A stretch of DNA of 64,000 nucleotides from Allobosea sp. 117 (GTDB taxonomy: Bacteria; Pseudomonadota; Alphaproteobacteria; Rhizobiales; Xanthobacteraceae), in contig NZ_JNLC01000012.1 of NCBI RefSeq assembly GCF_000702305.1, positions 186,001-250,000 on the forward strand, read 5' to 3'. Positions within the stretch are counted from its first letter, which is position 1. Each line of letters opens with the position of its first letter. The notes beneath the pieces were generated by a model. That model did not search any database, was not told the DNA's origin, and saw only the letters and a list, made by a program, of their open reading frames with translations. Below, in pieces: positions 24,824 through 63,766 of this stretch. A program made the position numbers and the translations under genes.

Positions 24824-26065
24824 TCAGCCGATCCTCTCCAGCTCCACCCAGTTCAACGCCACCGATGCGGGGCCACCCTTGGCCCGCGCGACGATCTCGA
24901 AATACTGCAGATCACGTTCGCATATGAATTCGGCAGATTTATAGGCGGCGCTCAGTGACAAGGTCGCAACCGGGAAGCCGAAGCGTGCGGCGACGGTGAG
25001 CGCAACGTCGCCATCGATCTCGCCGCCCAGCTTGATCCGGTAGACGCCGCGCCGCAGCCGCCAGTATGGCCCGTAGAAGAGGATTTCACGATCTCCGCCG
25101 GTGGCCTCAAGAAGATCGCGCTCCTGCCGCTGCAGAGTGGCCGCCTGCGTGACGAACTGCCGGGGATAGATCCGGAAAAACGACCGGGAACGCCGCAGGT
25201 CAGGATCACGGTGGGCAAGTACATAGCCACTGTAATCCGCCAGCGTATCCTTCTGCAACGGCCGCAGGACCGGACCGGGGTCGATCCCGAACAGGTGAAA
25301 GCCGAGCTTTTCGAAATAGGCTTCGAGTGGAGCCTCGTTTCCGGCGCCGCGTTCCAGCTTCTCGAACAGCACGACAGCATTCGGCGAGCGCGCCAGAGTT
25401 CCGCGCATGCCCCGCAAGACTCCGAGCTCGTGCCCCTCGACATCGATCTTCACAATGTCACAGATCAGACTATCGGGCATCAGGTCGTCGAGGCGGTGCA
25501 ATTCGGCCTTGATCTGCTGTCCGCTGCCTGCACCCTGGGTACCTCCCCCCAGATGATCCTGAGGATAGGAGAAGGTTACTTCGCCATTCTGCTCCCCGAG
25601 GCCGAGCTGGTGCACCACGATGCGGGCGTCCGCCGTTCCGTGTAGCTGCGAGAAACCGTTCAGATAGGCACTCGCCCGGGCGAGCCGTGCAAGCTGAGGA
25701 TGCGGCTCGAAAGCATGAACGCGACCGAATGGCAGCCGGCGCGCCAGATTGAGCGAGAAAAACCCTAAATTCGCACCAATATCGAGGAAGACCGAATCGC
25801 AATGAACGAAGCTGAACAGCGTCTCCAGATTGTCGACTTCGTAGAGCCCGCCCGCGACGAAATTCGCGGGAGGTCCGAAATCGTTGGAGTTGACATAAAT
25901 CGGCGTACCGTCCGCCAGATAGGTTAGCGCCGTCTGGGAACCGATGTAGCTCGACAAGTGACTGGTTATAAAATCCAGTTGAAACAACGCTTCGTCGAGC
26001 TTTGCTTCCAGACGCCGGAATTGAGCCGTGATGTCCACTGCGTCGGCAGCCGAAGAAAATTTCAT
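24824..26065 (-). CDS. FkbM-family methyltransferase with extra C-terminal domain
   Basis: A 413-residue protein. Residues ~60-290 are a FkbM-type SAM methyltransferase: SVFLDIGANLGFFSLNLARR (motif I), VHAFEPHPQLARLARA, and IVKIDVEGHELGVLRGMRG near residue 205. After the catalytic domain (~residue 320 on) comes a beta-rich module, LRRGVYRIKLGGEIDGDV to NWVELERIG. FkbM enzymes O-methylate sugars, so capping of the capsule is plausible. ATG 26065 is chosen; an upstream ATG at 26116 adds 17 codons with atypical, AT-ending codons. It is the first gene of the minus-strand export operon. Confidence 0.8.
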   Translation of the reverse strand: MKFSSAADAVDITAQFRRLEAKLDEALFQLDFITSHLSSYIGSQTALTYLADGTPIYVNSNDFGPPANFVAGGLYEVDNLETLFSFVHCDSVFLDIGANLGFFSLNLARRLPFGRVHAFEPHPQLARLARASAYLNGFSQLHGTADARIVVHQLGLGEQNGEVTFSYPQDHLGGGTQGAGSGQQIKAELHRLDDLMPDSLICDIVKIDVEGHELGVLRGMRGTLARSPNAVVLFEKLERGAGNEAPLEAYFEKLGFHLFGIDPGPVLRPLQKDTLADYSGYVLAHRDPDLRRSRSFFRIYPRQFVTQAATLQRQERDLLEATGGDREILFYGPYWRLRRGVYRIKLGGEIDGDVALTVAARFGFPVATLSLSAAYKSAEFICERDLQYFEIVARAKGGPASVALNWVELERIG

Positions 26066-26447
26066 CAATTTGTTCGTCTTATCCACACAAGGAAGGTAAC
26101 TCGCTCGCGAGCGCATCCCTTATAGCGGAGTCCTTCTCCCCTCGACAATGCCGCACTGCACACTCCGGCCGCCGCGCCCTCGGTTGCCGGCAGCGGACGG
26201 TATCAAGGTCACGATTTTACCACTGGATTACCGGTCGAGGCACCATGGCCATGCGGCGCGCGCATGCGCTCCGATGGCCGGCGTCGAACCCTGCCCACTC
26301 GCCTGGCCCAATAATCACCCAAGGTCATTACGTTAGGTTATTTGGCCAACGGAGAACACTTCTCGAAACAACTGTTCCTGCCGCGATTTCATCGCAGTTT
26401 CATGAAAGACGGGAATTGTCGGCCGCCCCGGCTGCAGAAGGTTCTCC
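26066..26447. other. Divergent promoter region between the capsule operon and lipid A module
   Basis: About 380 bases between the FkbM methyltransferase start and the GT2 start. Locally AT-rich around 26200-26400. Small frames here have no support. Promoters for both directions are expected; no operator-like dyad stood out. Confidence 0.5.
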
Positions 26448-34958: not shown

Positions 34959-37067
34959 ATGCGTTTGAAGATCGATGCCCTCAGGAAGCTCAAACACCGG
35001 ATCCGCAAGGCCCTGGGCATCAAGAAGAAGCGGCGCGGCGACTTCTGGCGCGATCCGGCGACCTTCGTCCACACGCTGCGCGACATCGACCCGGCGACGA
35101 TCCGCTTCCCCGAGGTGGACGGCACGCCGGACGTCTCGGTCATCATCCCGACCTATGGCAACGTCGTCCATGTGCTGAACTGCCTCGCCTCGATCGCCGG
35201 GCATCTCCCGAAGGCGTCGCTGGAGGTGATCGTGGCGGAGGACGCCTCCGGCGCGCCGGAGGTTGAGAAGCTGCGCCGGGTTGCCGGCATTGTGCTGATG
35301 GTCCATCCGGCCAATCTCGGTTTCCTGCGCTCCTGCAACGCCGCCGTGGCCAGCGCGCGGGGGCGTTTCATCCACCTCCTGAACGACGACACCATCGTGC
35401 TTCCCGGCGCCATAGACGCGCTCGTGGAATGCGCCAAGACCCGCACGGATGCCGGGCTCGTGGGCTCCAAGTTGGTTTACCCGGACGGGCGGCTGCAGGA
35501 GGCTGGCGGCATCGTCTGGTCCGACGGCTCGGCGGCGAACTATGGCTGGCGCGACGACCCCGACAAGCCGGAATACCAATATGCGCGGGAGGCCGACTAC
35601 GTGTCGGGGGCCTCGGTGCTGATCCCGAAGGAGGTCTGGCAGGAGCTCCGCGGTTTCGACGAGGCCTTCCTGCCGGCCTATTACGAGGACACCGATTTCT
35701 GCTTCCGCGTGCGGGCCTCGGGCCGGAAGGTCTATTTCGAGCCCCGCTCGGTCATCTGCCATTTCGAGGGCGTGTCGCACGGCACCGATACCGCCAGCGG
35801 CATCAAGGCCTATCAGGACGTCAATAAGCGCACCTTCGCCGCACGCTGGGCGGGCGTCCTCGCGCGCGAGAACTATCCATTCGAGCGCGAGGGCCGAGCG
35901 CCCCCTCGCCATATCTTCCGCGCCCGCGACCGGGCGAAGCTGCGGCCCGTCCTGCTGATCGTCGACGAGAAGGTGCCGGAGCCGGATCGCGACGCCGGAT
36001 CGCGCAACATGGTGGAGTTCGTGCGCAGCCTCCAGAGCATCGGCTGGGTGGTGAAATACTGGCCCTACCACCTCGCTTACGATCCCGTTTACGTCCCCGC
36101 CTTGCAAGCCATGGGCGTCGAGGTGTTCTACCGGCCGTTCGAGCATACGCTCGACGAATGGCTGCAAAAGAACGGTCGCGATATCAACTACGTGCTGATG
36201 TCGCGGCCCGGCATCACCGACGGCCTCATCGGGTCCGTGAGGAAATGGACCAAGGCGTCGGTGCTTTATTACGGGCACGACCTCCATTCCGCCCGCATGC
36301 GGCTGGAGGCACAGGTGAAGGGCGACGCCTCGATCGCCCGCGAAGCGGACAGGATGGAGACGATGGAGCGCCACGTCTGGCGCCGGGCCGATGCCGTCAT
36401 CTACCCCGCTGCCGAGGAGGCCGAGACCGTCCGCCAGATGGAGCCGAGCGTCGAAGCGCTGAGCGCGACGATCTTCTGCTTCGACCGCTTCGCTCCTCGT
36501 CAGGCCGCTGCCCGAGAACACAAGATCCTGTTCGTGGCGGGCTTCAGCCATGCGCCGAACATCGACGCGGCGATCTGGCTGGCGAACGAGATCATGCCCC
36601 GGATTCGCGCGCGGATACCGGATGCCGAGCTCTATCTCGTCGGCTCCAATCCGACGCCCGAGATCGTGGCCCTCGCCGGCCGATCCGTGCACGTCACCGG
36701 CTGGGTCTCGGCGGAGGACCTCGCCGCGCACTACGCCGATGCGCGCGCGGCCGTGGTGCCGCTGCGCTTCGGTGCTGGCGTAAAGCTGAAGGTGGTCGAG
36801 GCGCTGGTCGAAGGCGTGCCGCTGGTCACGACGCCGGTCGGCGCGCAGGGCCTGCCCGACCTCGCCGAGGTTGCGAGCGTCGAGGAGACCCCCGCGACGA
36901 TCGCGGACCGCCTCGTTGAAATTCTGGAGGCGGGCGACGAGGAATGGCTCGCCCGCTCGCGCCGGCAGACCGACTACGCGGCGCGCCACTTCGCGCGCCA
37001 GCGCCAGGTCGACGATCTGCTCGCCGCCTTTGCCGCGGCCAAGCGGGTGCGGGAGAATCGTTGCTGA
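34959..37067 (+). CDS. Two-domain glycosyltransferase (GT2 + GT4-like)
   Basis: A 702-residue protein with a GT2 domain at residues ~55-290 and a GT-B domain from ~325. The first has SVIIPTYGNVVHVLNCLASI, NLGFLRSCNAAVASARGRF, LLNDDTIVLPGAIDALVE and the late YYEDTDFCFRVRASG typical of rhamnosyltransferase-like enzymes. The second has FVAGFSHAPNIDAAIWLANE, ELYLVGSNPTPEIVALAG, and RFGAGVKLKVVEALVEGVPLV. The basic N-terminus (KLKHRIRKALGIKKKRR) may touch the membrane. Similar in design to the 13.5 kb fusion but outside the capsule cluster, so it may serve another glycan such as O-antigen. Confidence 0.82.
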   Translation: MRLKIDALRKLKHRIRKALGIKKKRRGDFWRDPATFVHTLRDIDPATIRFPEVDGTPDVSVIIPTYGNVVHVLNCLASIAGHLPKASLEVIVAEDASGAPEVEKLRRVAGIVLMVHPANLGFLRSCNAAVASARGRFIHLLNDDTIVLPGAIDALVECAKTRTDAGLVGSKLVYPDGRLQEAGGIVWSDGSAANYGWRDDPDKPEYQYAREADYVSGASVLIPKEVWQELRGFDEAFLPAYYEDTDFCFRVRASGRKVYFEPRSVICHFEGVSHGTDTASGIKAYQDVNKRTFAARWAGVLARENYPFEREGRAPPRHIFRARDRAKLRPVLLIVDEKVPEPDRDAGSRNMVEFVRSLQSIGWVVKYWPYHLAYDPVYVPALQAMGVEVFYRPFEHTLDEWLQKNGRDINYVLMSRPGITDGLIGSVRKWTKASVLYYGHDLHSARMRLEAQVKGDASIAREADRMETMERHVWRRADAVIYPAAEEAETVRQMEPSVEALSATIFCFDRFAPRQAAAREHKILFVAGFSHAPNIDAAIWLANEIMPRIRARIPDAELYLVGSNPTPEIVALAGRSVHVTGWVSAEDLAAHYADARAAVVPLRFGAGVKLKVVEALVEGVPLVTTPVGAQGLPDLAEVASVEETPATIADRLVEILEAGDEEWLARSRRQTDYAARHFARQRQVDDLLAAFAAAKRVRENRC

Positions 37068-37070
37068 AGG

Positions 37071-37508
37071 TCAGTCGCTGCCCGGGTCAGGCACGAAACC
37101 GGCCGCGGTGATGCCGGCGGCGGCCGCCGCCTCGTCATTCTCCGAGGTGTCGCCGGAGATGCCGACGGCGCCGATCACCGCCCCTTCCGTGTCGCGGATC
37201 AGCACGCCGCCCGGCACCGGAACCAGCGCGCCGCCGACCACGTGCGACACGGCGCTGATGAAGAAGGCCTGCTCCTTCGCCCGCTTGAACAGCGAGCGCG
37301 ACCCCATGCCGAGCGAGAGCGCGCCATAGGCCTTGCCATGCGCGACCTCGCCGCGCTTCAGGCTGGTGCCGTCCTCGGCGGCGGCGACCTTGATCGCGCC
37401 GCGTCCGTCGAGCACGACGACCGCCATCGGCTTGAAGCCGCCCTTGCGGCAATGATCGAGAGCGGTGGAGAGAATGGTCTGCGCCGCCGCAAGGGAAAGT
37501 GTCGTCAT
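37071..37508 (-). CDS. GlcG/HbpS family (DUF336) protein
   Basis: A 145-residue small protein. Characteristic elements are LSLAAAQTILSTALDHCRK, FKPMAVVVLDGRGAIKVAAA, GKAYGALSLGMGSRS and VPGGVLIRDTEGAVIGAVGISG, the Gly-rich end of the heme-degrading/HbpS-like family. These bind heme or small cofactors; some are linked to glycolate or diol metabolism. No signal peptide is seen, so it should be cytoplasmic. It converges on the GT2-GT4 gene with 3 bases between and is divergent from the crotonase gene. Confidence 0.78.
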   Translation of the reverse strand: MTTLSLAAAQTILSTALDHCRKGGFKPMAVVVLDGRGAIKVAAAEDGTSLKRGEVAHGKAYGALSLGMGSRSLFKRAKEQAFFISAVSHVVGGALVPVPGGVLIRDTEGAVIGAVGISGDTSENDEAAAAAGITAAGFVPDPGSD

Positions 37509-53016: not shown

Positions 53017-53049
53017 TCACGTCTCCAGCCGGTCGATCATCGGCTGGGA
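53017..53049 (-). pseudogene. glgC: Remnant of the 3' end of glgC (ADP-glucose pyrophosphorylase)
   Basis: Reading leftward, the last codons before a TGA at 53017-53019 give [10 protein letters not shown], 7 bases upstream of the glgA start. From memory, alphaproteobacterial GlgC proteins end in a TQ-x-MID-x-L segment, and glgC normally sits directly before glgA. Upstream of about 53050 the match stops: the small frame continues to an ATG at 53079 as MRILKAPQLP, which is not GlgC. The rest of glgC is not in the window. The best reading is an insertion into the 3' end of glgC by the adjacent integrase-bearing element. Confidence 0.6.
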
Positions 53050-53208: not shown

Positions 53209-54282
53209 ATGGGCATTATCACCACTCGCAAGCGAGGGGGTGGATCGGTCGGATATACGGCTCAGATCAGAAAGAAGCAAAAGGGCAAGGTGATCTTCAA
53301 CGAGGCGCAAACCTTCGACAGAAGGTCGGCCGCGGTGGCATGGATACGCAAGCGCGAAGGCGAGCTGGACAAGCCAGGGACGATGGAGCGCCTGAGCAGC
53401 CCGAAAATGACGCTCGGCGAGGCCATCGACCAGTACATCGAGCAGTCTTCGAAAAAATTCGGCCGCACGAAAGAGGCTACGCTCAAGCTCATAAAAATCT
53501 ACCACATCACCGAAATGGATTGTGCCTCCATCCAGAGCAGCGACATCACCGAGTTCGCTCAACAGCTCTCAAAGGAGCGATCCCCCGCTACGGTCGCGAG
53601 CTATATCGCACACCTTGCCGTCGTGTTCTCCATAGCGAAGCCAACTTGGAATGTGGCTCTCGATGCCGGCGTCATGGAGAGCGCCCGCAACGTGATGAAG
53701 CTCATGGCCACGACCGGCAACAGCAAGCGTCGTACTCGCCGGCCGACCGTCGACGAAGTGAAGCGGCTGATGCAGCACTTTGCCGATCGTCCGGAGCGGT
53801 GGCGCAGATCGCTCCCCATGACGAAGATCATACCCTTCGCGCTCTTCTCGGCACGCCGGCAGGAGGAGATCGTCAAGATCAGGTGGGCCGATCTGGATGA
53901 GGCCGGGAAGCGCGTCCTCGTTCGAGATATGAAGGACTCCGATGCGAAGGAGGGGAATCACATTTGGTGCGATCTTCCGGAGCACGCCTTGGAGATCATC
54001 CTGTCGATGGATCGGTCCTCAGAGGAAGTCTTCCCATGGAAGAAGGACACTGTCGCTCAAGCGTTCTGCGCCGCGTGCGATGAGCTGAAGATTGTGGACC
54101 TTCACTTGCACGATCTGCGCCACGAGGGCGTCTCTCGGCTATTCGAGATGGGGCGAACAATCCCGCAGGCGGCCAGCGTCTCCGGGCATCGCACGTGGAG
54201 CAGTCTTCAGCGCTACTCCCATCTGCGCCAGACCGGCGACAAATGGGCCGACTTCGACTGGAAGAAGTGGGACCCGGTTTAG
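53209..54282 (+). CDS. Tyrosine recombinase/integrase
   Basis: A 357-residue phage-type integrase. An N-terminal arm-binding part (residues 1-60), a SAM-like core-binding domain (LGEAIDQYIEQSSKKFGRTKE...) and a catalytic domain are present. Catalytic residues visible are Arg in FSARRQEEIVKIRW near 215, H-x-x-R in HLHDLRHEGVSRLF near 301-304, GHRTW, and the nucleophile Tyr in SLQRYSHL near 334. It sits 160 bases from the glgC remnant and should integrate the element there. The GC content is lower than in the glycogen genes. Most similar in feel to small Hyphomicrobiales island integrases. Confidence 0.9.
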   Translation: MGIITTRKRGGGSVGYTAQIRKKQKGKVIFNEAQTFDRRSAAVAWIRKREGELDKPGTMERLSSPKMTLGEAIDQYIEQSSKKFGRTKEATLKLIKIYHITEMDCASIQSSDITEFAQQLSKERSPATVASYIAHLAVVFSIAKPTWNVALDAGVMESARNVMKLMATTGNSKRRTRRPTVDEVKRLMQHFADRPERWRRSLPMTKIIPFALFSARRQEEIVKIRWADLDEAGKRVLVRDMKDSDAKEGNHIWCDLPEHALEIILSMDRSSEEVFPWKKDTVAQAFCAACDELKIVDLHLHDLRHEGVSRLFEMGRTIPQAASVSGHRTWSSLQRYSHLRQTGDKWADFDWKKWDPV

Positions 54283-54591: not shown

Positions 54592-55239
54592 TCAACCAGT
54601 CTTCGACTTCCGCGGCACCTCTTGCGCCGAAGGATTCATGAAGTTCGAAATCCGGCGCCCTCCCTGCTCGGGATCGTAGGAGATCGACAGCACGCGCGCG
54701 TCTTCCGGGCTCACGGAGATGTAGAGATGCGCCATTCCGCTGTCGAAATAGCTGCTCTCGCCCTGGTTCAACCGGTAAGGCTCGTAGAACTCGGTATGAA
54801 TCTCGATGGCGCCGGAGAGCACGTAGACGAACTCCTCGCCATGGTGCCGGCTCCAGTGATCGAACTCCTCGATGGCGCGGGCGCGCACCGTTATCTCGAG
54901 CGGCACCATTCCCTTTCGTGAGATTTCGGTCGCGTGTGCCTTGTAATCGTACTGCACGCTGGTGAAATGCACGCCGCCGTCGATGAGCGTCGCGGTTTTG
55001 CGGCCGGAAATCTGGCTCGGCGCGCCAGGTCGCACGAACTCTTCGATCGAAAGGTCGAGGCCATCGCATATCTTCTTGATGATGTCGAAGGACGGCGAGA
55101 CTTGGTTGTTCTCGATCTTCGACAGGGTCGAGATCGAGACCCCGGACAATTCGCTCGCCCGGCTCAGCGTCAGCCGGTTTGCCTTGCGCACCTCTTTGAG
55201 GCGACTGCCGATCACGCTCGCGACGCTGTTATCGCTCAC
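54592..55239 (-). CDS. XRE-family regulator with C-terminal cupin domain
   Basis: A 215-residue transcription regulator. Residues ~10-65 are a Cro/C1 helix-turn-helix (IGSRLKEVRKANRLTLSRASELSGVSISTLSKIE, core ASELSGVSISTLSKIENNQ), residues ~110-195 a cupin (EEFDHWSRHHGEEFVYVLSG, YFDSGMAHLYISVS) that may sense a small ligand. The GTG start at 55239 has AGGAGA six bases upstream and is preferred to ATG 55263, which lacks a Shine-Dalgarno. It is divergent from the enolase-superfamily gene and most likely controls that operon through the dyad at 55312-55361. Confidence 0.85.
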   Translation of the reverse strand: MSDNSVASVIGSRLKEVRKANRLTLSRASELSGVSISTLSKIENNQVSPSFDIIKKICDGLDLSIEEFVRPGAPSQISGRKTATLIDGGVHFTSVQYDYKAHATEISRKGMVPLEITVRARAIEEFDHWSRHHGEEFVYVLSGAIEIHTEFYEPYRLNQGESSYFDSGMAHLYISVSPEDARVLSISYDPEQGGRRISNFMNPSAQEVPRKSKTG

Positions 55240-55311
55240 CGAAGCTCTCCTGTTCGACGGCATTTTGCACGGAACTGCGCCGGGGCACGCCCAATTTTTA
55301 ACATAGTGAAC

Positions 55312-55361
55312 ATTTTTCTCGCAATTTTCTCTTTAAAGAAAATTTTCTCTTGCGAAAAAAT
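55312..55361. promoter_or_regulatory. AT-rich nested dyad and direct repeats between divergent regulator and catabolic operon
   Basis: ATTTTTCTCGCAA (55312-55324) is nearly the inverse of TTGCGAAAAAAT (55350-55361). Inside, AATTTTCTCTT is repeated exactly at 55323-55333 and 55341-55351, and TTTTCTCTTTAAAGAAAA is an imperfect palindrome at the centre. The spacing of 18 bases between direct repeats and the position in the divergent gap fit an operator for the XRE-cupin protein. Confidence 0.6.
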
Positions 55362-55401
55362 ATCACAGGTTCTTCACTGCGGTCCATCGAAAGGTATGGA
55401 C

Positions 55402-56556
55402 ATGAAGATCACCGCGATTGAAGCGATCCCCTTCCGCCTGCCGGCACGGCGCGATTTCAAATGGGCCGGCCTTGCGGTGGATCTTGGCGGCTTCGTGCTC
55501 GTCCGCATCCGTACCGACGAAGGGCTCGTCGGCATAGGCGAAGCCACGCCCCTTCCCGACTGGGGCGGGGATCACGGCCGTCGCTCCGGCGAAACGCTTC
55601 GCACGGTTTGCGCGGTCGTCGAGGACGTCCTTGCGCCGCGGCTCATCGGACAGGATCCGACGCGGATCGAAGCACTGCGGGTGGTAATGTCCAAGGCGCT
55701 GAAAGGCAACAGCTACGCCAAGGCGGCGATCGATATCGCGCTTCACGATCTTGCCGGCAAGGCGGCGGGCGTACCGCTCTATCGGCTTCTCGGAGGCTTG
55801 GCCCGCGAGGCCGTGCCGGTGACGCACATGGTCGGCCTCATGGCCTTCGACGAGGCGGTCGCCGAGGCCGTCGGGGCGGTCGAGGACGGCGCGCGCGGCA
55901 TGCAGATCAAGGGGGGCGAGGATGCCGAGCGCGACGTCGCGCTGGTGCAGGAGGTACGCCGGCAGGTCGGGGGCGACATCACCATCCGACTGGACGCCAA
56001 CCAGGGCTATGGCGATCCGCGCAACGCCATTTCCGTCGTGCGTCGCCTGACGGACGCCGGTGTGAGCATGGTGGAGCAGCCGACCTCCGGCCACAGGGAG
56101 ATGGCGCGCGTCGTCGCCTCCGTCGACGTGCCCATCATCGCCGACGAAAGCTCGTGGGATGCGCGCGAGGCGATGGAGCTCGTCGCCGCCGGCGCCGCCG
56201 ACCACATCTCGATCTATCTCGCCAAGGCGGGCGGGCTTGCCGGTGCGCGCCGGGTCGCCGCCATCGCCGAGGCGGGCAGCTGCCGGTGCGACGTCAACGG
56301 CTCGATCGAATCCGCCATCGGTACCGCCGCCAATCTGGCCTTCGCGCTAGCGACCCCCTGCGTGGACCTCGGATGCGTGATCCCGATCAGCGCGCCGGCT
56401 GGCGCGCACCCCTACCGCATCGCCGGCCACTATTACGAGGACGACATCGTCGCCGAACCGTTCCCGACCGCCGACGGTGCGCTTCTGCCACTCGAGGGCC
56501 CCGGCCTCGGCATCGAGATCGACGAGCAGCGCCTCGCGCGCTTCAGGCTCGACTGA
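55402..56556 (+). CDS. Enolase-superfamily enzyme (mandelate racemase / muconate lactonizing type)
   Basis: A 384-residue enzyme with the enolase-superfamily capping domain and TIM barrel. Metal ligands are Asp in IRLDANQGYG near residue 197, Glu in MVEQPTSGH near 224 and Asp in IIADESSWD near 248; the general base Lys lies in ISIYLAKAGGLAGA near 273. The second Lys of the K-x-K motif is present (GMQIKGGED near 168) but the first is Gln. This resembles the MLE/dipeptide-epimerase branch. ATG 55402 has AAAGG at good spacing; ATG 55396 is too close to it. First gene of a five-gene unit with an M19-like protein and an ABC importer. The substrate is unknown; an amino-acid or dipeptide derivative fits the neighbours. 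Confidence 0.85.
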   Translation: MKITAIEAIPFRLPARRDFKWAGLAVDLGGFVLVRIRTDEGLVGIGEATPLPDWGGDHGRRSGETLRTVCAVVEDVLAPRLIGQDPTRIEALRVVMSKALKGNSYAKAAIDIALHDLAGKAAGVPLYRLLGGLAREAVPVTHMVGLMAFDEAVAEAVGAVEDGARGMQIKGGEDAERDVALVQEVRRQVGGDITIRLDANQGYGDPRNAISVVRRLTDAGVSMVEQPTSGHREMARVVASVDVPIIADESSWDAREAMELVAAGAADHISIYLAKAGGLAGARRVAAIAEAGSCRCDVNGSIESAIGTAANLAFALATPCVDLGCVIPISAPAGAHPYRIAGHYYEDDIVAEPFPTADGALLPLEGPGLGIEIDEQRLARFRLD

Positions 56557-56592
56557 ACAGAAGAATCAAATCCGCAGACGTGGGACGTGGGG

Positions 56593-57609
56593 ATGCAAAT
56601 GTCCGCTTCAGCTGACGCTCTTCATCGGGATGCGGTCGTCTTCGACGGCCTCATCATTTCGAACTGGAGCCGCGAGATCTTCGAGCACATGCATGGCGCC
56701 GGCATCACCGCGGCCAACTGCACCTGCTGCATCTGGGACGACTTTAAGAGCGCGATGGACAACATCGTCCGCTGGAAGCGCTGGATCCGCGAGAACGACG
56801 ACATCCTGCTGCAGGTCTATTCCACCGCCGACATCGCGCGGGCCAAGCGCGAGAACAAGGTCGGCATCGTCCTCGGCTGGCAGAACACGTCCGGCATCGA
56901 CGACCAGATCGGCTATCTCGAGCTGTTCAAGGAGCTCGGCGTCGGGGTCATGCAGATGACCTACAACACCCAGAACCTGAGCGGCTCGGGCTGCCGCGAG
57001 GATCGCGACAGCGGCCTGTCCGGCTTCGGCCGCGAAGTGCTGGCCGAGATGAACCGGCTCGGCATCCTCTGCGACCTGTCGCATGTCGGCCCAAAGACCT
57101 GCGAGGACGTGATCCTCGCCTCGAAGAAGCCGGTGGCCTTCACCCATGTCTGCCCGGCGGCGCTGCGCGAGAATCCGCGCAACAAGAGCGACGACCAGTT
57201 GAAGCTCATCGCCGATCACGGCGGCTTCGTCGGCATCACCGTATATCCCTGGTTCCTGCGCCGCGGCAATGAATCGACCATCGACGACTTCGTCGAGGCC
57301 ATCGAGTACACGATCGACCTCATCGGAGAGGACAGGGTCGGCTACGGCACCGACTTCACCGAGGGCTATGGCCCCGACTTCCTGGATTTCCTGGGGCGGG
57401 ACAAGGGCTATGGGCGGCGCATCGTGCCGGTGGCCGATGCCGTGTTCCCCGCCGGCCTCGAATGCATCGGCGACACCCCGAACATCACCGCCACCATGCT
57501 GCGTCGCGGCTGGCCGGAAGCGCGCATCCGCGCCGTTATGGGCGAGAACTGGGTCCGCTTCCTCGCCGATGCCTGGAACGAGCCTGCCGCAGCAGAGGCG
57601 AAGCCATGA
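56593..57609 (+). CDS. Peptidase M19 (renal dipeptidase)-like protein with altered metal site
   Basis: A 338-residue amidohydrolase-fold protein. The usual first metal motif D-G-H-N-D is replaced by VVFDGLIISNWSR near residue 18, and the bridging Glu segment reads VLGWQNTSGIDDQ. The two later His remain: CDLSHVGPKTCEDV near 161 and FTHVCPAALRENPRN near 184, as does the overall fold path (NKSDDQLKLIADHGGFVGIT; YGTDFTEGYG). It may have one metal or a non-peptidase reaction. GTG 56587 and ATG 56599 are alternative starts. Its stop overlaps the start of the next gene (ATGA). Confidence 0.78.
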   Translation: MQMSASADALHRDAVVFDGLIISNWSREIFEHMHGAGITAANCTCCIWDDFKSAMDNIVRWKRWIRENDDILLQVYSTADIARAKRENKVGIVLGWQNTSGIDDQIGYLELFKELGVGVMQMTYNTQNLSGSGCREDRDSGLSGFGREVLAEMNRLGILCDLSHVGPKTCEDVILASKKPVAFTHVCPAALRENPRNKSDDQLKLIADHGGFVGITVYPWFLRRGNESTIDDFVEAIEYTIDLIGEDRVGYGTDFTEGYGPDFLDFLGRDKGYGRRIVPVADAVFPAGLECIGDTPNITATMLRRGWPEARIRAVMGENWVRFLADAWNEPAAAEAKP

Positions 57610-57968
57610 GCCATCCGGAGATCTTCAACGAAATCATGCGCGAGCGTGGCTTTGCCGAGCTGCCCGACTTCTACCGCGTCATGATCCCGTTTCCGCGCAT
57701 GACCGCTCAGTTCTGGCAGAGCCTGAAGGTGGCTATGGCGCCGGGGGTCATCGACGCCAAGACCAAGGAGATGATCGCCATCGCGATCTCGATCGCACTC
57801 AACGCGCGCTACGCGATCGATTCCCACATCGACATCGCCCGCGGCCTGGGCATGACCGACGACGAGCTCGACGAGCTTCTCATGCTGGCCGGCGCCTACG
57901 CCCACACCGCCGCCATCTGCGCGGCGCTGAAGCCGGCCTACGCGTCTTCGCCATCCACGCCCGGATGA
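57606..57968 (+). CDS. Carboxymuconolactone-decarboxylase-like protein without redox cysteines
   Basis: A 120-residue AhpD/CMD-fold protein. The core reads AKTKEMIAIAISIALNARYAIDSHIDIARGLGMTDDELDELL. Glu in TKEM and His in DSHI match the family, but the C-x-x-C of AhpD peroxidases is replaced by NARY. So a decarboxylase/lyase-like or structural role is more likely than a peroxidase. It overlaps the M19-like gene by four bases, so the pair is coupled, followed by the ABC importer genes. Confidence 0.78.
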   Translation: MSHPEIFNEIMRERGFAELPDFYRVMIPFPRMTAQFWQSLKVAMAPGVIDAKTKEMIAIAISIALNARYAIDSHIDIARGLGMTDDELDELLMLAGAYAHTAAICAALKPAYASSPSTPG

Positions 57969-58083
57969 CGTCAGCGCGTGTCGCCTGACGCGCAAGAGCC
58001 GCCTGCCGGCTTTACGGGCGCGGTCCGGCCGACGGCTTCCGATCCTAAGCAGTGCTTACGGCAACAACGACAGGACATGGGAA

Positions 58084-58938
58084 ATGAACACTGAGATCAC
58101 ACGCGGACAGTTCCTTTCGCTCCTCGCCGGAGCGCTCGCCTATTCCGGCGTCGGCCCGGCGCTCGCCGCCGACGGCCCGACCATCGCCGCCAAGGACGGC
58201 TCATTCGAGCGGGTCAAGAAGGCCGGCACCGTCGTCTTTGGCACATCGAACGACCAGCCGTTCAACTTCCTCGATCCCAAGACCCAGCAGATCAGCGGCA
58301 TCGACGCCGACATGCTGCTCTACATCATGGACAAGCTCGGCATCCCCAAGCGCGAGATGATCCAGAACGAGTTCTCGGGCCTGATCCCCGGCCTGCTCGG
58401 CGGACGCTTCGACATCGTCGCTGATGCGATGGCCATCACCGAGAAGCGCAAGCTGCAGATCGCCTTCACCGATCCCTGGTACATCTATGGCGACGCCTTC
58501 ATCGTCGCCAAGGGCAACCCCCTCGGCATCAAGTCCATGCAGGACCTGACCAAGGGCTATCGCGGCGCCTCCTATGCCGGCACCATCTACATGGACTGGC
58601 TGAACGAGCTCGCGCCGAAGGGCGCCAAGATCTCCAGCTATCCGGCGGTTCCCGAGATGTTGCAGGACTTCAAGAACGGCCGGCTCGACGCCGCGCTCGT
58701 GGACGGTCCGGTGTTCGGCTATCTGCTGATCCAGCAGCCGGACCTTGCCAACTATGTCGAGGTGCTGAAGGGCTACGAGGTGCGTCCGGACAAGACGAAT
58801 GTCGGCGCCGGCATCCGCAAGGAGGATGTGGCATTGCGTGAAGCCGTCAACTGGGCCCTGGCCGAGATGAAGAAAGAAGGCGCCGACCTGAAGATCCTCA
58901 AGAAGTGGGGCCTCGACGAAAGCAACCGCGCCTCCTGA
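58084..58938 (+). CDS. Polar amino-acid-type ABC transporter substrate-binding protein
   Basis: A 284-residue periplasmic binding protein. The signal is FLSLLAGALAYSGVGPALAA. The mature part has the family 3 landmarks ERVKKAGTVVFGTSNDQPFN, GIDADMLLYIMDKLGIP, FDIVADAMAITEKRKLQIAFT and PWYIYGDAFIVAKGNPLG. It resembles EhuB-type ectoine or polar amino-acid binding proteins. It should feed the permease-ATPase encoded next. A 115-base gap precedes it, with GACAGGACATGGGAA just before the start. Confidence 0.88.
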   Translation: MNTEITRGQFLSLLAGALAYSGVGPALAADGPTIAAKDGSFERVKKAGTVVFGTSNDQPFNFLDPKTQQISGIDADMLLYIMDKLGIPKREMIQNEFSGLIPGLLGGRFDIVADAMAITEKRKLQIAFTDPWYIYGDAFIVAKGNPLGIKSMQDLTKGYRGASYAGTIYMDWLNELAPKGAKISSYPAVPEMLQDFKNGRLDAALVDGPVFGYLLIQQPDLANYVEVLKGYEVRPDKTNVGAGIRKEDVALREAVNWALAEMKKEGADLKILKKWGLDESNRAS

Positions 58939-58964
58939 GCCGTCCAGACGCGGAATCGCCATCC

Positions 58965-60443
58965 ATGTCCTTCTCCTGGCAAGACTTTGTCGAGTTCCTT
59001 CCGATCCTGCTCGCCGGGGCGTGGATGACAGTCAAGCTTTCGGTCGTGTCGATGACCCTCGCGCTCAGCCTCGGCGTCGTGATGGCGCTGGCGCGAGGGT
59101 CCTCGAACCGGCTGATCCGGTGGCCCGCCGCCTTCTACATCGATTTCCTGCGTGGAACGCCGCTGCTGCTGCAGATTTTCTACGTCTATTACGCCCTACC
59201 CCTTGCCGGCATACGTTTCGACTCCTTCACCGCAGGCGTGCTCTCGCTCGGTATCAACTACAGCGCCTATCTCGCCGAAGTGTTTCGTTCCGGCATCCAG
59301 GCCATCCCCTATGGTCAGCGCGAAGCGGCATCCTGCCTCGGAATGTCGCCGCTCATGACGATGCGGCGCATCGTCCTGCCCCAGGCATTCCGTATTGTCA
59401 TTCCGCCGATCGCCAACTATTCGGTTGGAATGATCAAGGATTCCGCGCTTGTGTCGGTCATCGCGGTGACAGACCTGTTGCGCGCCGGGCAGCTGCTTGC
59501 GTCGACGACATACAAGCACTTTCAGATATACACTTACGTCGCGGGAATATACCTTGTTCTATGCTATCCGCTCACGCTGTTCACGAGCTGGCTTGAGCAG
59601 AAGCTTCGCTCGCGGATCGACCGTGTCGCGCCCGTGCCGGAGGTCGATCAGGCTGTGCGCGAGGCGCCGGCCGCTTCGGCGCCGGACAGATCGCCCGCGC
59701 TGCGCTCCGACGGCCCGCTGATCGAGGTCCGCAATGTCAGCAAGCAGTTCCACGATCACCCCGTGCTCGACCGGATCGAACTGACCGTCGCGCGTGGCGA
59801 GGTAATCGTCGTGCTCGGCCCGAGCGGTTCAGGCAAGAGCACGCTGCTGCGCACACTGAACAAGCTCGAGACCATCGACGACGGACAGATCGTCATCGAT
59901 GGCATGGACATCTGGGCGGACAAGGCTCCATCCGATGTGCCACGCGCACGGGTCGGCATGGTGTTCCAGCAATTCAATCTGTTCCCCCACCGGACGGTGA
60001 TCGAGAACGTCATCGAGGCGCCAATCCACGTCGCTGGCCTGCCGCGCCGGCAGGCCGAGGCCGAGGCGCTAGCGCTGCTCGACAAGGTTGGGCTGCTGCA
60101 CAAGGCCGGCGCCTATCCAGCCAAGCTTTCCGGCGGGCAGCAGCAGCGTGTGGCGATCGCTCGCGCGCTCGCGATGCACCCCGACATCATGCTGTTCGAC
60201 GAGGTGACATCGGCGCTCGACCCGGAGCTGGTCGGCGAGGTGCTGCGCGTCATGCGCCAGCTCGCCACCGACGGCATGACCATGTTCGTCGTCACCCATG
60301 AGATGAACTTCGCGCGCGACGTCGCCGACCGGATCCTGTTCCTGGCGGAAGGGCGGATCATTGAGCAGTCGACGCCGGAGGTCTTCTTCAGCAATCCTGC
60401 GACGGACCGCGCGAGGGCCTTCGTGGCGAGTTTCAGAGGGTAG
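58965..60443 (+). CDS. Fused ABC transporter permease and ATP-binding protein (amino-acid type)
   Basis: A 492-residue single-chain importer. Residues 1-~225 are a HisM/GlnP-type permease: FYIDFLRGTPLLLQIFYVYY, then the EAA loop YGQREAASCLGMSPLMTMRR and VIPPIANYSVGMIKDSAL. A ~40-residue linker (VPEVDQAVREAPAASAPDRS) leads to a GlnQ/HisP ATPase: Walker A GPSGSGKST near 285, Q-loop VFQQFNLFPH, signature LSGGQQQRVAIARALA near 388, Walker B IMLFDEVTSALDP, H-loop VVTHEM. It should form a homodimer. Follows the binding-protein gene by 26 bases. Confidence 0.9.
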   Translation: MSFSWQDFVEFLPILLAGAWMTVKLSVVSMTLALSLGVVMALARGSSNRLIRWPAAFYIDFLRGTPLLLQIFYVYYALPLAGIRFDSFTAGVLSLGINYSAYLAEVFRSGIQAIPYGQREAASCLGMSPLMTMRRIVLPQAFRIVIPPIANYSVGMIKDSALVSVIAVTDLLRAGQLLASTTYKHFQIYTYVAGIYLVLCYPLTLFTSWLEQKLRSRIDRVAPVPEVDQAVREAPAASAPDRSPALRSDGPLIEVRNVSKQFHDHPVLDRIELTVARGEVIVVLGPSGSGKSTLLRTLNKLETIDDGQIVIDGMDIWADKAPSDVPRARVGMVFQQFNLFPHRTVIENVIEAPIHVAGLPRRQAEAEALALLDKVGLLHKAGAYPAKLSGGQQQRVAIARALAMHPDIMLFDEVTSALDPELVGEVLRVMRQLATDGMTMFVVTHEMNFARDVADRILFLAEGRIIEQSTPEVFFSNPATDRARAFVASFRG

Positions 60444-62865: not shown

Positions 62866-63382
62866 GATGCGCCACTTTCGGACCTCGGCTCACTGCCAGA
62901 AAGCGGACACACCGCTAGGCGAAGCCTTGCCATGATCGTCATTCAACGCGTTTCTTCGCATAGAATTTCAGCAAGCTTCATCCCGATCGCTTGACCGGGT
63001 ACCCGTTGCGACACGGCCTGCCAGACGAAAAACCTCCTTCACCGTCTGCCACCGACCCCAAACTGCTCATTCGTGATAACCGCTGCGAACCCATAAGCTC
63101 CAGCAGTAATTCGTCGCGCGGCCGGGTGGCGGCCGGCTCTCCTCGCGCAGGAACGCACCCTTGCTCGCCCCACCCCGCATGTAGACGGCAGCAATCGCCC
63201 GCTGGGGCATTCCCGATCCACCCCCTCATGTCGCGCAGCCGGGCCCAGAGGGCCGGGGATTGCAGCGCTGCGCAAGATTGGCGAGGCCATTGCCAGGTTG
63301 CTCTATTGACGGATTGTCCGTCAATCTGTAAGTGTCGTGTCGGCGCTCTGGATCGGCCGCTCATCTTGGATGGAAAGCAAAA
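62866..63382. other. Long intergenic region before the PcaC-like gene
   Basis: 517 bases. Several short frames on both strands but none with a domain or good start. The final 80 bases contain a perfect operator-like dyad (63305-63325). The rest looks like non-coding or decayed island sequence. Confidence 0.5.
63305..63325. promoter_or_regulatory. Perfect operator-like dyad upstream of the PcaC-like gene
   Basis: ATTGACGGA-TTG-TCCGTCAAT: 9-base perfect arms with a 3-base centre, 58 bases before the start codon. TTGACG at its left could be a -35 element, so a bound TetR- or GntR-type repressor would block transcription. No repressor gene is in view; it may lie right of the window. Confidence 0.6.
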
Positions 63383-63766
63383 ATGAGTAATGATTCCCTG
63401 TTCGACATCGGCCTGAAGAATCGTCGTGAAGTTCTCGGCGCCGACTATGTGGATAACTCCATCAAGAACGCCGACTCCTTCAATACGGAATTTCAGAAGC
63501 TAGTCACCGAATATTGCTGGGGTGAGATCTGGAGTCGCGATGGGCTTACGCGGCGTGAGCGTTCTCTGATCAATCTTGCGATGATCTCGGCGCTCAACCG
63601 CCCGCACGAGCTCAAGCTGCATGTGCAGGGCGCGCTGAACAACGGCCTCAGCCGCGAGGACATCAAGGAAGTGCTGCTCCAGGTCATGATCTATTGCGGC
63701 GTGCCGGCGGCGGTGGACGCCTTCCGCATCGCCCGCGAAGTCGTCGGCCACGACAAGGACCGCTAG
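63383..63766 (+). CDS. Carboxymuconolactone decarboxylase family protein (PcaC-like)
   Basis: A 127-residue CMD-fold protein: LKNRREVLGADYVDNSIKNA, YCWGEIWSRDGLTRRERSLI, ALNRPHELKLHVQGALNNGL and VMIYCGVPAAVDAFRIA follow the gamma-carboxymuconolactone decarboxylase pattern. There is no C-x-x-C peroxidase motif. It should act in aromatic or related ring-cleavage product breakdown. GGAAAG lies six bases before ATG 63383. The next gene, an RraA/aldolase-like start, supports a catabolic operon. Confidence 0.85.
   Translation: MSNDSLFDIGLKNRREVLGADYVDNSIKNADSFNTEFQKLVTEYCWGEIWSRDGLTRRERSLINLAMISALNRPHELKLHVQGALNNGLSREDIKEVLLQVMIYCGVPAAVDAFRIAREVVGHDKDR

Follow-up and report, generated by a model that had tools for sequence, protein, structure and literature searches.

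Probable role of a Q-x-K enolase operon with altered M19-like and CMD-fold proteins in the degradation of an amino-acid-like compound in Allobosea sp. 117

Introduction

What would an operon degrade if three of its enzymes keep the folds of named families and differ from these families at their motifs? This question is raised by a locus of the soil bacterium Allobosea sp. 117, located in a stretch of 64,000 nucleotides (contig NZ_JNLC01000012.1, positions 186,001 to 250,000; hereafter the window, on whose scale all coordinates are given). The locus holds genes for an enolase-superfamily enzyme, an M19-like protein, a CMD-fold protein, a binding protein, and a fused permease-ATPase. The original prediction, made from the sequence alone, regarded them as an operon for the import, epimerisation, and cleavage of an amino-acid conjugate by chemistry not covered by the named families, and this interpretation is partly supported by the present analysis. 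The gene set is real and probably functional, and the operon probably imports an amino-acid-like compound and breaks it down. The more detailed account that we prefer, tentatively and with somewhat less than even confidence, is that of an inducible import-and-degradation operon on an integrase island, where uptake would be followed by epimerisation and by the opening of an amide or lactam by the M19-like protein, which would stand in the place of the ATP-dependent hydantoinase/lactamase pair HyuAB, with the CMD protein as an accessory.

Gene organisation of the operon

The features of the locus are as follows.

54592 to 55263, minus strand: XRE-cupin transcriptional regulator (Pfam HTH_3 and Cupin_2)
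55324 to 55361, no strand: dyad between the divergent genes, composed of two 19-nt arms with 74% complementarity
55343 to 55358, no strand: proposed operator TTTTC-N6-GAAAA, an inverted repeat common to the upstream regions of related loci
55396 to 56556, plus strand: enolase-superfamily enzyme with Q-x-K, 386 amino acids (Pfam MR_MLE_N, MR_MLE_C)
56593 to 57609, plus strand: M19-like protein, 338 amino acids (Pfam Peptidase_M19, 5.1e-82); an alternative GTG start at 56587 is possible
57606 to 57968, plus strand: CMD-fold protein with A-x-x-A instead of C-x-x-C, 120 amino acids (Pfam CMD, 5.1e-17)
58084 to 58938, plus strand: family-3 solute-binding protein, 284 amino acids (Pfam SBP_bac_3, 1.1e-28)
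58965 to 60443, plus strand: fused amino-acid permease and ATPase, 492 amino acids (Pfam BPD_transp_1, ABC_tran)

The five plus-strand genes between 55396 and 60443 are tightly packed. The gap between the enolase and M19-like genes is 36 bp when the latter is read from its ATG and 30 bp from the upstream GTG, and the stop of the M19-like gene overlaps the start of the CMD gene by 4 bp; the spacing is 115 bp from the CMD gene to the binding-protein gene and 26 bp from there to the permease gene. Because the genes are so closely spaced, the arrangement suggests a single transcript for the enzyme genes. Scans for promoters and terminators gave no more sites than were found in shuffled sequences.

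The five-gene operon and its altered motifs are confirmed: the genes stand in the order that had been described, with the named folds according to the open reading frames and Pfam, and the permease and ATPase are fused in a single protein of 492 residues with both Pfam domains. The divergent regulator, in which both HTH_3 and Cupin_2 were detected, exists as well, but it lies outside the interval of 55312 to 60443 in which the original prediction had placed the system. The elaborate dyad that was described between the regulator and the operon is real.

The Q-x-K enolase

The enolase-superfamily protein reads QIK at residues 170–172, where the signature of the MLE subgroup is a K-x-K closing the second barrel strand; D200, E227, D250, and K277 are retained. 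Its two Pfam MR/MLE domains exceed their gathering scores (161.8 against 29.4 bits and 93 against 22 bits), and comparison with Pfam and the Protein Data Bank (PDB) places the protein within the muconate-lactonizing branch. The named enolase functions were rejected because every curated family cut-off was missed, including those of muconate cycloisomerase (TIGR02534, 230.6 against 334.95 bits), cis-3-hydroxy-L-proline dehydratase (NF043002, 139.3 against 500 bits), and L-Ala-D/L-Glu epimerase (NF041118, 106.8 against 500 bits).

The Q-x-K motif is kept in all 23 related enolase loci, at 56–66% identity: in 22/22 aligned rows, a count that omitted the repeats L052, L054, L056, and L065 and the split match L059 and was taken from an alignment including one unrelated row (L066), and in L059, which reads Q-I-K. 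The 23 distinct loci are 22 of the 23 found in the scan of the genome collection (all except L057) and L060 from the search for relatives; L061–L063 were left out as repeats of L052, L054, and L056. The enolase of L057, which is 46% identical, likewise has Q-x-K. The nearest outsiders have K-x-K (L007/L065 and L064/L036, each pair being one locus, and L111), as do most of the remoter relatives, among which L014 and L028 have E-x-K. A 30% identical relative in the same genome (L002, C10:290177-291112) reads QLK at the aligned position. Because of the E-x-K of L014 and L028 and the Q-x-K of L002, the first lysine of the motif is variable in further enolase branches too.

Residues Q170, K172, D200, E227, D250, and K277 are invariant across 19 aligned rows. 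For the model built from 19 sequences (predicted local distance difference test, pLDDT, of 93), muconate cycloisomerases and the N-succinyl Arg/Lys racemase 2p88 share the top structural alignments, and dipeptide epimerases are close behind. Each face of the enolase active site has one lysine (K172 and K277), an arrangement that, judging from known relatives, suggests a 1,1-proton transfer as in epimerases. In the tree, the window enolase belongs to a well supported clade of 24, within which its position is not resolved.

Conserved partners of the Q-x-K enolase

The partners of the enolase gene were counted in the 23 related loci, where the values are lower bounds since several loci end at contig ends or at the end of the fetched length. 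Genes for both HyuA and HyuB are present in at least 21 loci, and in 19 of these 21 the HyuA gene starts no more than 256 bp from the end of the enolase gene. A GGT-like protein and an SDR are each encoded in 18/23 loci, a P450 in 15/23, a relative of the regulator (51–70% identical) in 13/23, and a full-length fused permease-ATPase in 5/23; a relative of the binding protein is found in 3/23, with a fourth, in L058, at a laxer threshold. M19 and CMD genes were detected in 0/23 related loci each. For the HyuA and HyuB of L058, the top-scoring models are those of caprolactamase, whose cut-offs they do not reach. Caprolactamase, hydantoinase, and 5-oxoprolinase are described in PMC8453981 as ATP-dependent enzymes that open lactams.

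A cluster of the Q-x-K enolase, HyuAB, and P450, mostly with the SDR and the GGT-like protein, recurs in L037–L044, L048–L051, L053, L058, and L059, in sphingomonads, acetic acid bacteria, roseobacters, and a rhizobium. The Q-x-K enolase module as a whole is spread over Hyphomicrobiales, sphingomonads, acetic acid bacteria, and roseobacters. A literature search combining enolase-type terms with hydantoinase found no described system for the recurring module.

The GGT-like and HyuAB genes, at 18/23 and 21/23 loci, would also fit a gamma-glutamyl/5-oxoproline pathway, in which the GGT-like proteins, the oxoprolinase-like HyuAB, and the dipeptidase-like proteins would belong to a modified breakdown of glutathione conjugates. 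The dipeptidase GliJ, which acts on glutathione conjugates, is among the relatives of the M19-like protein. However, the GGT-like protein, with a score of 223, falls short of the cut-off of 358, HyuA is most similar to caprolactamase (itself below the cut-off), and Pfam detects no GGT gene among the window operon genes. This pathway is considered very unlikely.

A second copy of the five-gene order was found neither in the related genomes searched with the enolase, M19-like, CMD, and binding proteins nor in the plasmid collection, where most genome hits were viewed with 1.5 kb per side and one binding-protein search covered the best six or fewer candidates per genome. The conserved core is the Q-x-K enolase, frequently accompanied by the regulator and an operator, and the enzyme partners differ in this island. 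The original prediction had stated that rare co-occurrence of the genes would speak against it, and this is largely what was observed, since the enolase accompanies M19 or CMD in no other locus examined. The proposed sequence of import, epimerisation, and amide cleavage gains from HyuAB in 21/23 loci and an M24 peptidase in the other two, and loses from the same lack of an M19 or CMD pairing elsewhere.

The absence of M19 and CMD from the related loci can also be read in another way. The regulator, enolase, and transporter may be the functional unit, and the M19-like and CMD genes may have come separately and act elsewhere, as members of a loose collection on a mobile island. A stretch of 30.4 kb containing the operon is missing in all three relatives examined, and several other catabolic modules were recognised by eye on the same island. 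On the other hand, the enolase, M19-like, and CMD genes are co-oriented with the 36-bp gap and 4-bp overlap typical of co-transcription. A loose collection of this kind is regarded as unlikely.

The proposed operator

The exact sequence TTTTC-N6-GAAAA occurs once in the window against 0.01 expected, and in two places in the 4.6-Mb genome against one for a reversed control. When one mismatch is allowed, the motif is found in the 300 bp preceding the enolase gene in 13/28 loci including the window, and thus in 12/27 other loci, that is, in 12/23 Q-x-K loci and 0/4 outer relatives, although the loci counted are related to each other and had also served to define the motif. The background outside these upstream regions is 14 matches with at most one mismatch in 421,349 positions. 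L038, L039, and L048 have a non-divergent regulator gene, which is immediately preceded by an additional exact copy. A first guess at the operator was rejected because it had no match. The XRE-cupin regulator would bind TTTTC-N6-GAAAA and control transcription in both directions.

The M19-like protein

The M19-like protein belongs to Pfam Peptidase_M19 (276 against a gathering score of 26 bits), and 2i5g, which carries the same changes, is its top-scoring PDB entry (446 bits over 322 residues). We take 2i5g to be PA5396 of Pseudomonas aeruginosa; a literature search on the locus name PA5396 found no described system. The protein reads DGLII at the position of the family motif D-G-H-x-D; the alignments to catalytic M19 enzymes stop short of this region. 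The metal-bridging Glu of renal dipeptidase corresponds in the alignment to Gln97, and H164, H185, R196, and D254 are retained. The two-metal site of catalytic M19 dipeptidases is thus incomplete, lacking H-x-D and the bridging Glu, as had been described for this protein; the two His, the Arg, and the Asp remain.

In an alignment of 30 relatives out of the 43 M19 loci fetched, the Glu is replaced by Gln in 30/30, the other four residues (two His, Arg, and Asp) are unchanged in 30/30, and H-x-D is absent in 29/30, the exception being L105 with an H-C-D shape at an insertion. Because these relatives have the same changes, the altered site is an old trait of a large subfamily and not unique to the operon. 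Most of the listed plasmid records with an annotated gene at this place call the M19 relative a 'dipeptidase', despite the incomplete metal site. In contig C261 of G087, a 53% identical M19 relative (25202–26191, L124) and a distant K-x-K relative of the enolase (36396–37493, L009) lie about 10 kb apart.

The surroundings of the subfamily vary. HyuAB genes are near a subfamily gene in two further loci, directly upstream in L119 and slightly downstream, beyond a GntR gene, in L107. In L106 and L112–L117, the M19-like gene adjoins a DUF5943 gene; L162 has the M19-like gene and DUF5943 in a stretch that, as the annotation reads, resembles a glycine betaine/dimethylglycine operon; and in L163 the gene adjoins sarcosine oxidase genes. 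Because the subfamily is found in such dimethylglycine- and sarcosine-type operons as well, a dipeptidase activity of the window protein is not assured. According to PMC12093977, dgcAB is preceded in both Vibrio natriegens and Pseudomonas aeruginosa by a hypothetical gene and one for a dipeptidase, and a membrane dipeptidase of the dgc operon is tabulated in PMC8079746.

These neighbours of the subfamily, with the dipeptidase gene before dgcAB, point to an alternative in which the substrate is an N-methylated or betaine-type amino acid, and the M19-like protein acts as it does in dimethylglycine/sarcosine operons instead of hydrolysing an amide. The best score of the binding protein, below the cut-off, is with the EhuB model, and electron-transfer flavoprotein genes were seen by eye farther along the island; both are consistent with such a substrate. 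In contrast, Pfam scans detected no DUF5943, demethylase, or sarcosine oxidase among the operon proteins, and DUF5943 was detected in 0/23 related enolase loci. The chance of an N-methyl or betaine substrate is accordingly rated as low.

The CMD-fold protein

The CMD protein scores 62.1 against a Pfam gathering score of 23 bits. Its motif is E-x11-A-x2-A-x3-H, in which the Glu and His are retained and alanines 67 and 70 replace both cysteines; C105 is its sole cysteine. The C-x-x-C of AhpD-type CMD peroxidases is therefore lacking, and since neither cysteine of the motif remains, a redox activity was rejected. PcaC is an example of other CMD enzymes without C-x-x-C. Relatives among 121 related genomes at 1e-12 are at most 40% identical. 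The idea that these relatives usually lack C-x-x-C was rejected, as both cysteines are present in 29/29 of the nearest relatives fetched; for this reason, the loss looks private to the window protein among them. An enolase or M19 gene was found in none of the 29 loci, within about 1.5 kb on each side. A second CMD-family protein on the island (63332–63766) is also without C-x-x-C and is PcaC-like by eye.

The original prediction took the altered sites of all three proteins as signs of chemistry outside the named families. The changes are real in each case, but those of the enolase (kept in 23/23 loci) and of the M19-like protein (shared by its whole subfamily, 2i5g included) are old features of their groups, whereas the loss of C-x-x-C sets the CMD protein apart, and attention to it was justified.

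The transporter

The best-scoring curated model for the binding protein is that of the ectoine-binding EhuB (TIGR02995), which gives 139.9 bits against a curated cut-off of 190.9 bits, and neither the binding protein nor the permease-ATPase reaches the cut-offs for EhuB, EhuA, EhuD, EhuC, GlnQ, GlnP, and GlnH. At 1e-40, the binding protein has only its self-match among 121 related genomes and 397 genomes of the same order, with the best six or fewer candidates per genome considered in the latter search. Its top match in the plasmid collection is from Selenomonas (36.5% identity).

Proposed pathway and its evaluation

In the proposed pathway, the binding protein and the fused permease-ATPase would import an amino-acid-like compound, possibly an amide or lactam. 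The Q-x-K enolase, in which the metal ligands, K172, and K277 are retained, would epimerise the carbon adjoining the carboxylate, and the M19-like protein with its reduced metal site may then open the amide or lactam bond. The M19-like protein would thereby take the job of the ATP-dependent HyuAB lactamase of the related clusters, and the CMD protein without the cysteines would be a non-redox accessory.

Several observations weigh against this pathway. The replacement of HyuAB by the M19-like protein is deduced from one genome, because no other examined locus pairs the enolase with M19 or CMD. HyuAB is itself absent in 2/23 loci (L046 and L047), where an M24 peptidase gene adjoins the enolase gene instead, and HyuAB may never have existed in the line of the window enolase, because the tree leaves the branching point of this copy in the Q-x-K clade open. 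The closest solved folds to the enolase are muconate cycloisomerases, tied with a racemase. The M19-like protein is without ligands that known M19 enzymes need, and its subfamily is also found in N-methylamine-type operons. As for the regulation, L052, L055, L056, and L060, three of which are Ancylobacter relatives, have the regulator and no operator upstream of the enolase, and the operator counts share their loci with the motif definition.

A broader possibility, to which we attach only a small probability, is that the Q-x-K enolases are an undescribed family of epimerases for lactam-type or N-blocked amino acids, serving an ATP-dependent lactamase pathway. With HyuAB they would form a second, independently evolved hydantoin racemase-hydantoinase pair, and on the island the M19-like protein and the cysteine-less CMD protein would replace the ATP step. 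A function for one Q-x-K enolase would annotate a widespread catabolic module, and the activity of the M19-like protein bears also on the dimethylglycine-type operons that hold members of its subfamily.

The integrase island

The remaining features concern the island in which the operon lies.

53027 to 53048, no strand: 22-bp direct repeat, left copy, likely attachment site of the island
53209 to 54282, plus strand: tyrosine recombinase/integrase at the left end of the island (Pfam Phage_integrase, 7.5e-14)
83393 to 83414 (window scale), no strand: right copy of the 22-bp direct repeat, 30,366 bp from the left copy and beyond the window, likely attachment site

The island extends over about 30.4 kb (approximately 53,002 to 83,390) beside glgA; 18 other genomes of the genus matched the glgA query, and it is missing from all three same-genus stretches in which the empty site was examined. 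Its GC content is 0.65, and those of the flanks are 0.72 and 0.67. According to translations inspected by eye, the rest of the island (L066, positions 245000-262000 of C11, the contig of the window) encodes an aldehyde dehydrogenase, GntR and LysR regulators, a tripartite tricarboxylate-type transporter, electron-transfer flavoprotein subunits, a flavoprotein dehydrogenase, and an HpcH-type aldolase, which indicates more catabolic modules.

Comparison with known systems

The window enolase resembles the MLE subgroup (muconate cycloisomerases, 2p88, and the L-Ala-D/L-Glu epimerase 1jpm) in a fold that matches over nearly the full length (Z of 45–50) and in the metal ligands and lysines of both faces, which align. 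It differs in the Gln that replaces the first lysine throughout its group and in scores that are all below the cut-offs of the curated families. The M19-like protein belongs to the same subfamily as the 'amidohydrolase' 2i5g, with the same loss of H-x-D and the same change of Glu to Gln; the inspected relatives in this subfamily, however, are in dimethylglycine-type or other operons, none with a window-type enolase. The transport genes share a family-3 binding protein and an amino-acid ABC transporter with the ectoine system EhuABCD and the glutamine system GlnHPQ, whereas the permease and ATPase of the window are fused and the curated cut-offs are missed. Finally, HyuAB/CapAB, the ATP-dependent hydantoinase/caprolactamase, is the usual partner of the related enolase genes, but it is not among the window operon genes, and the HyuAB of L058 stays below the caprolactamase cut-offs.

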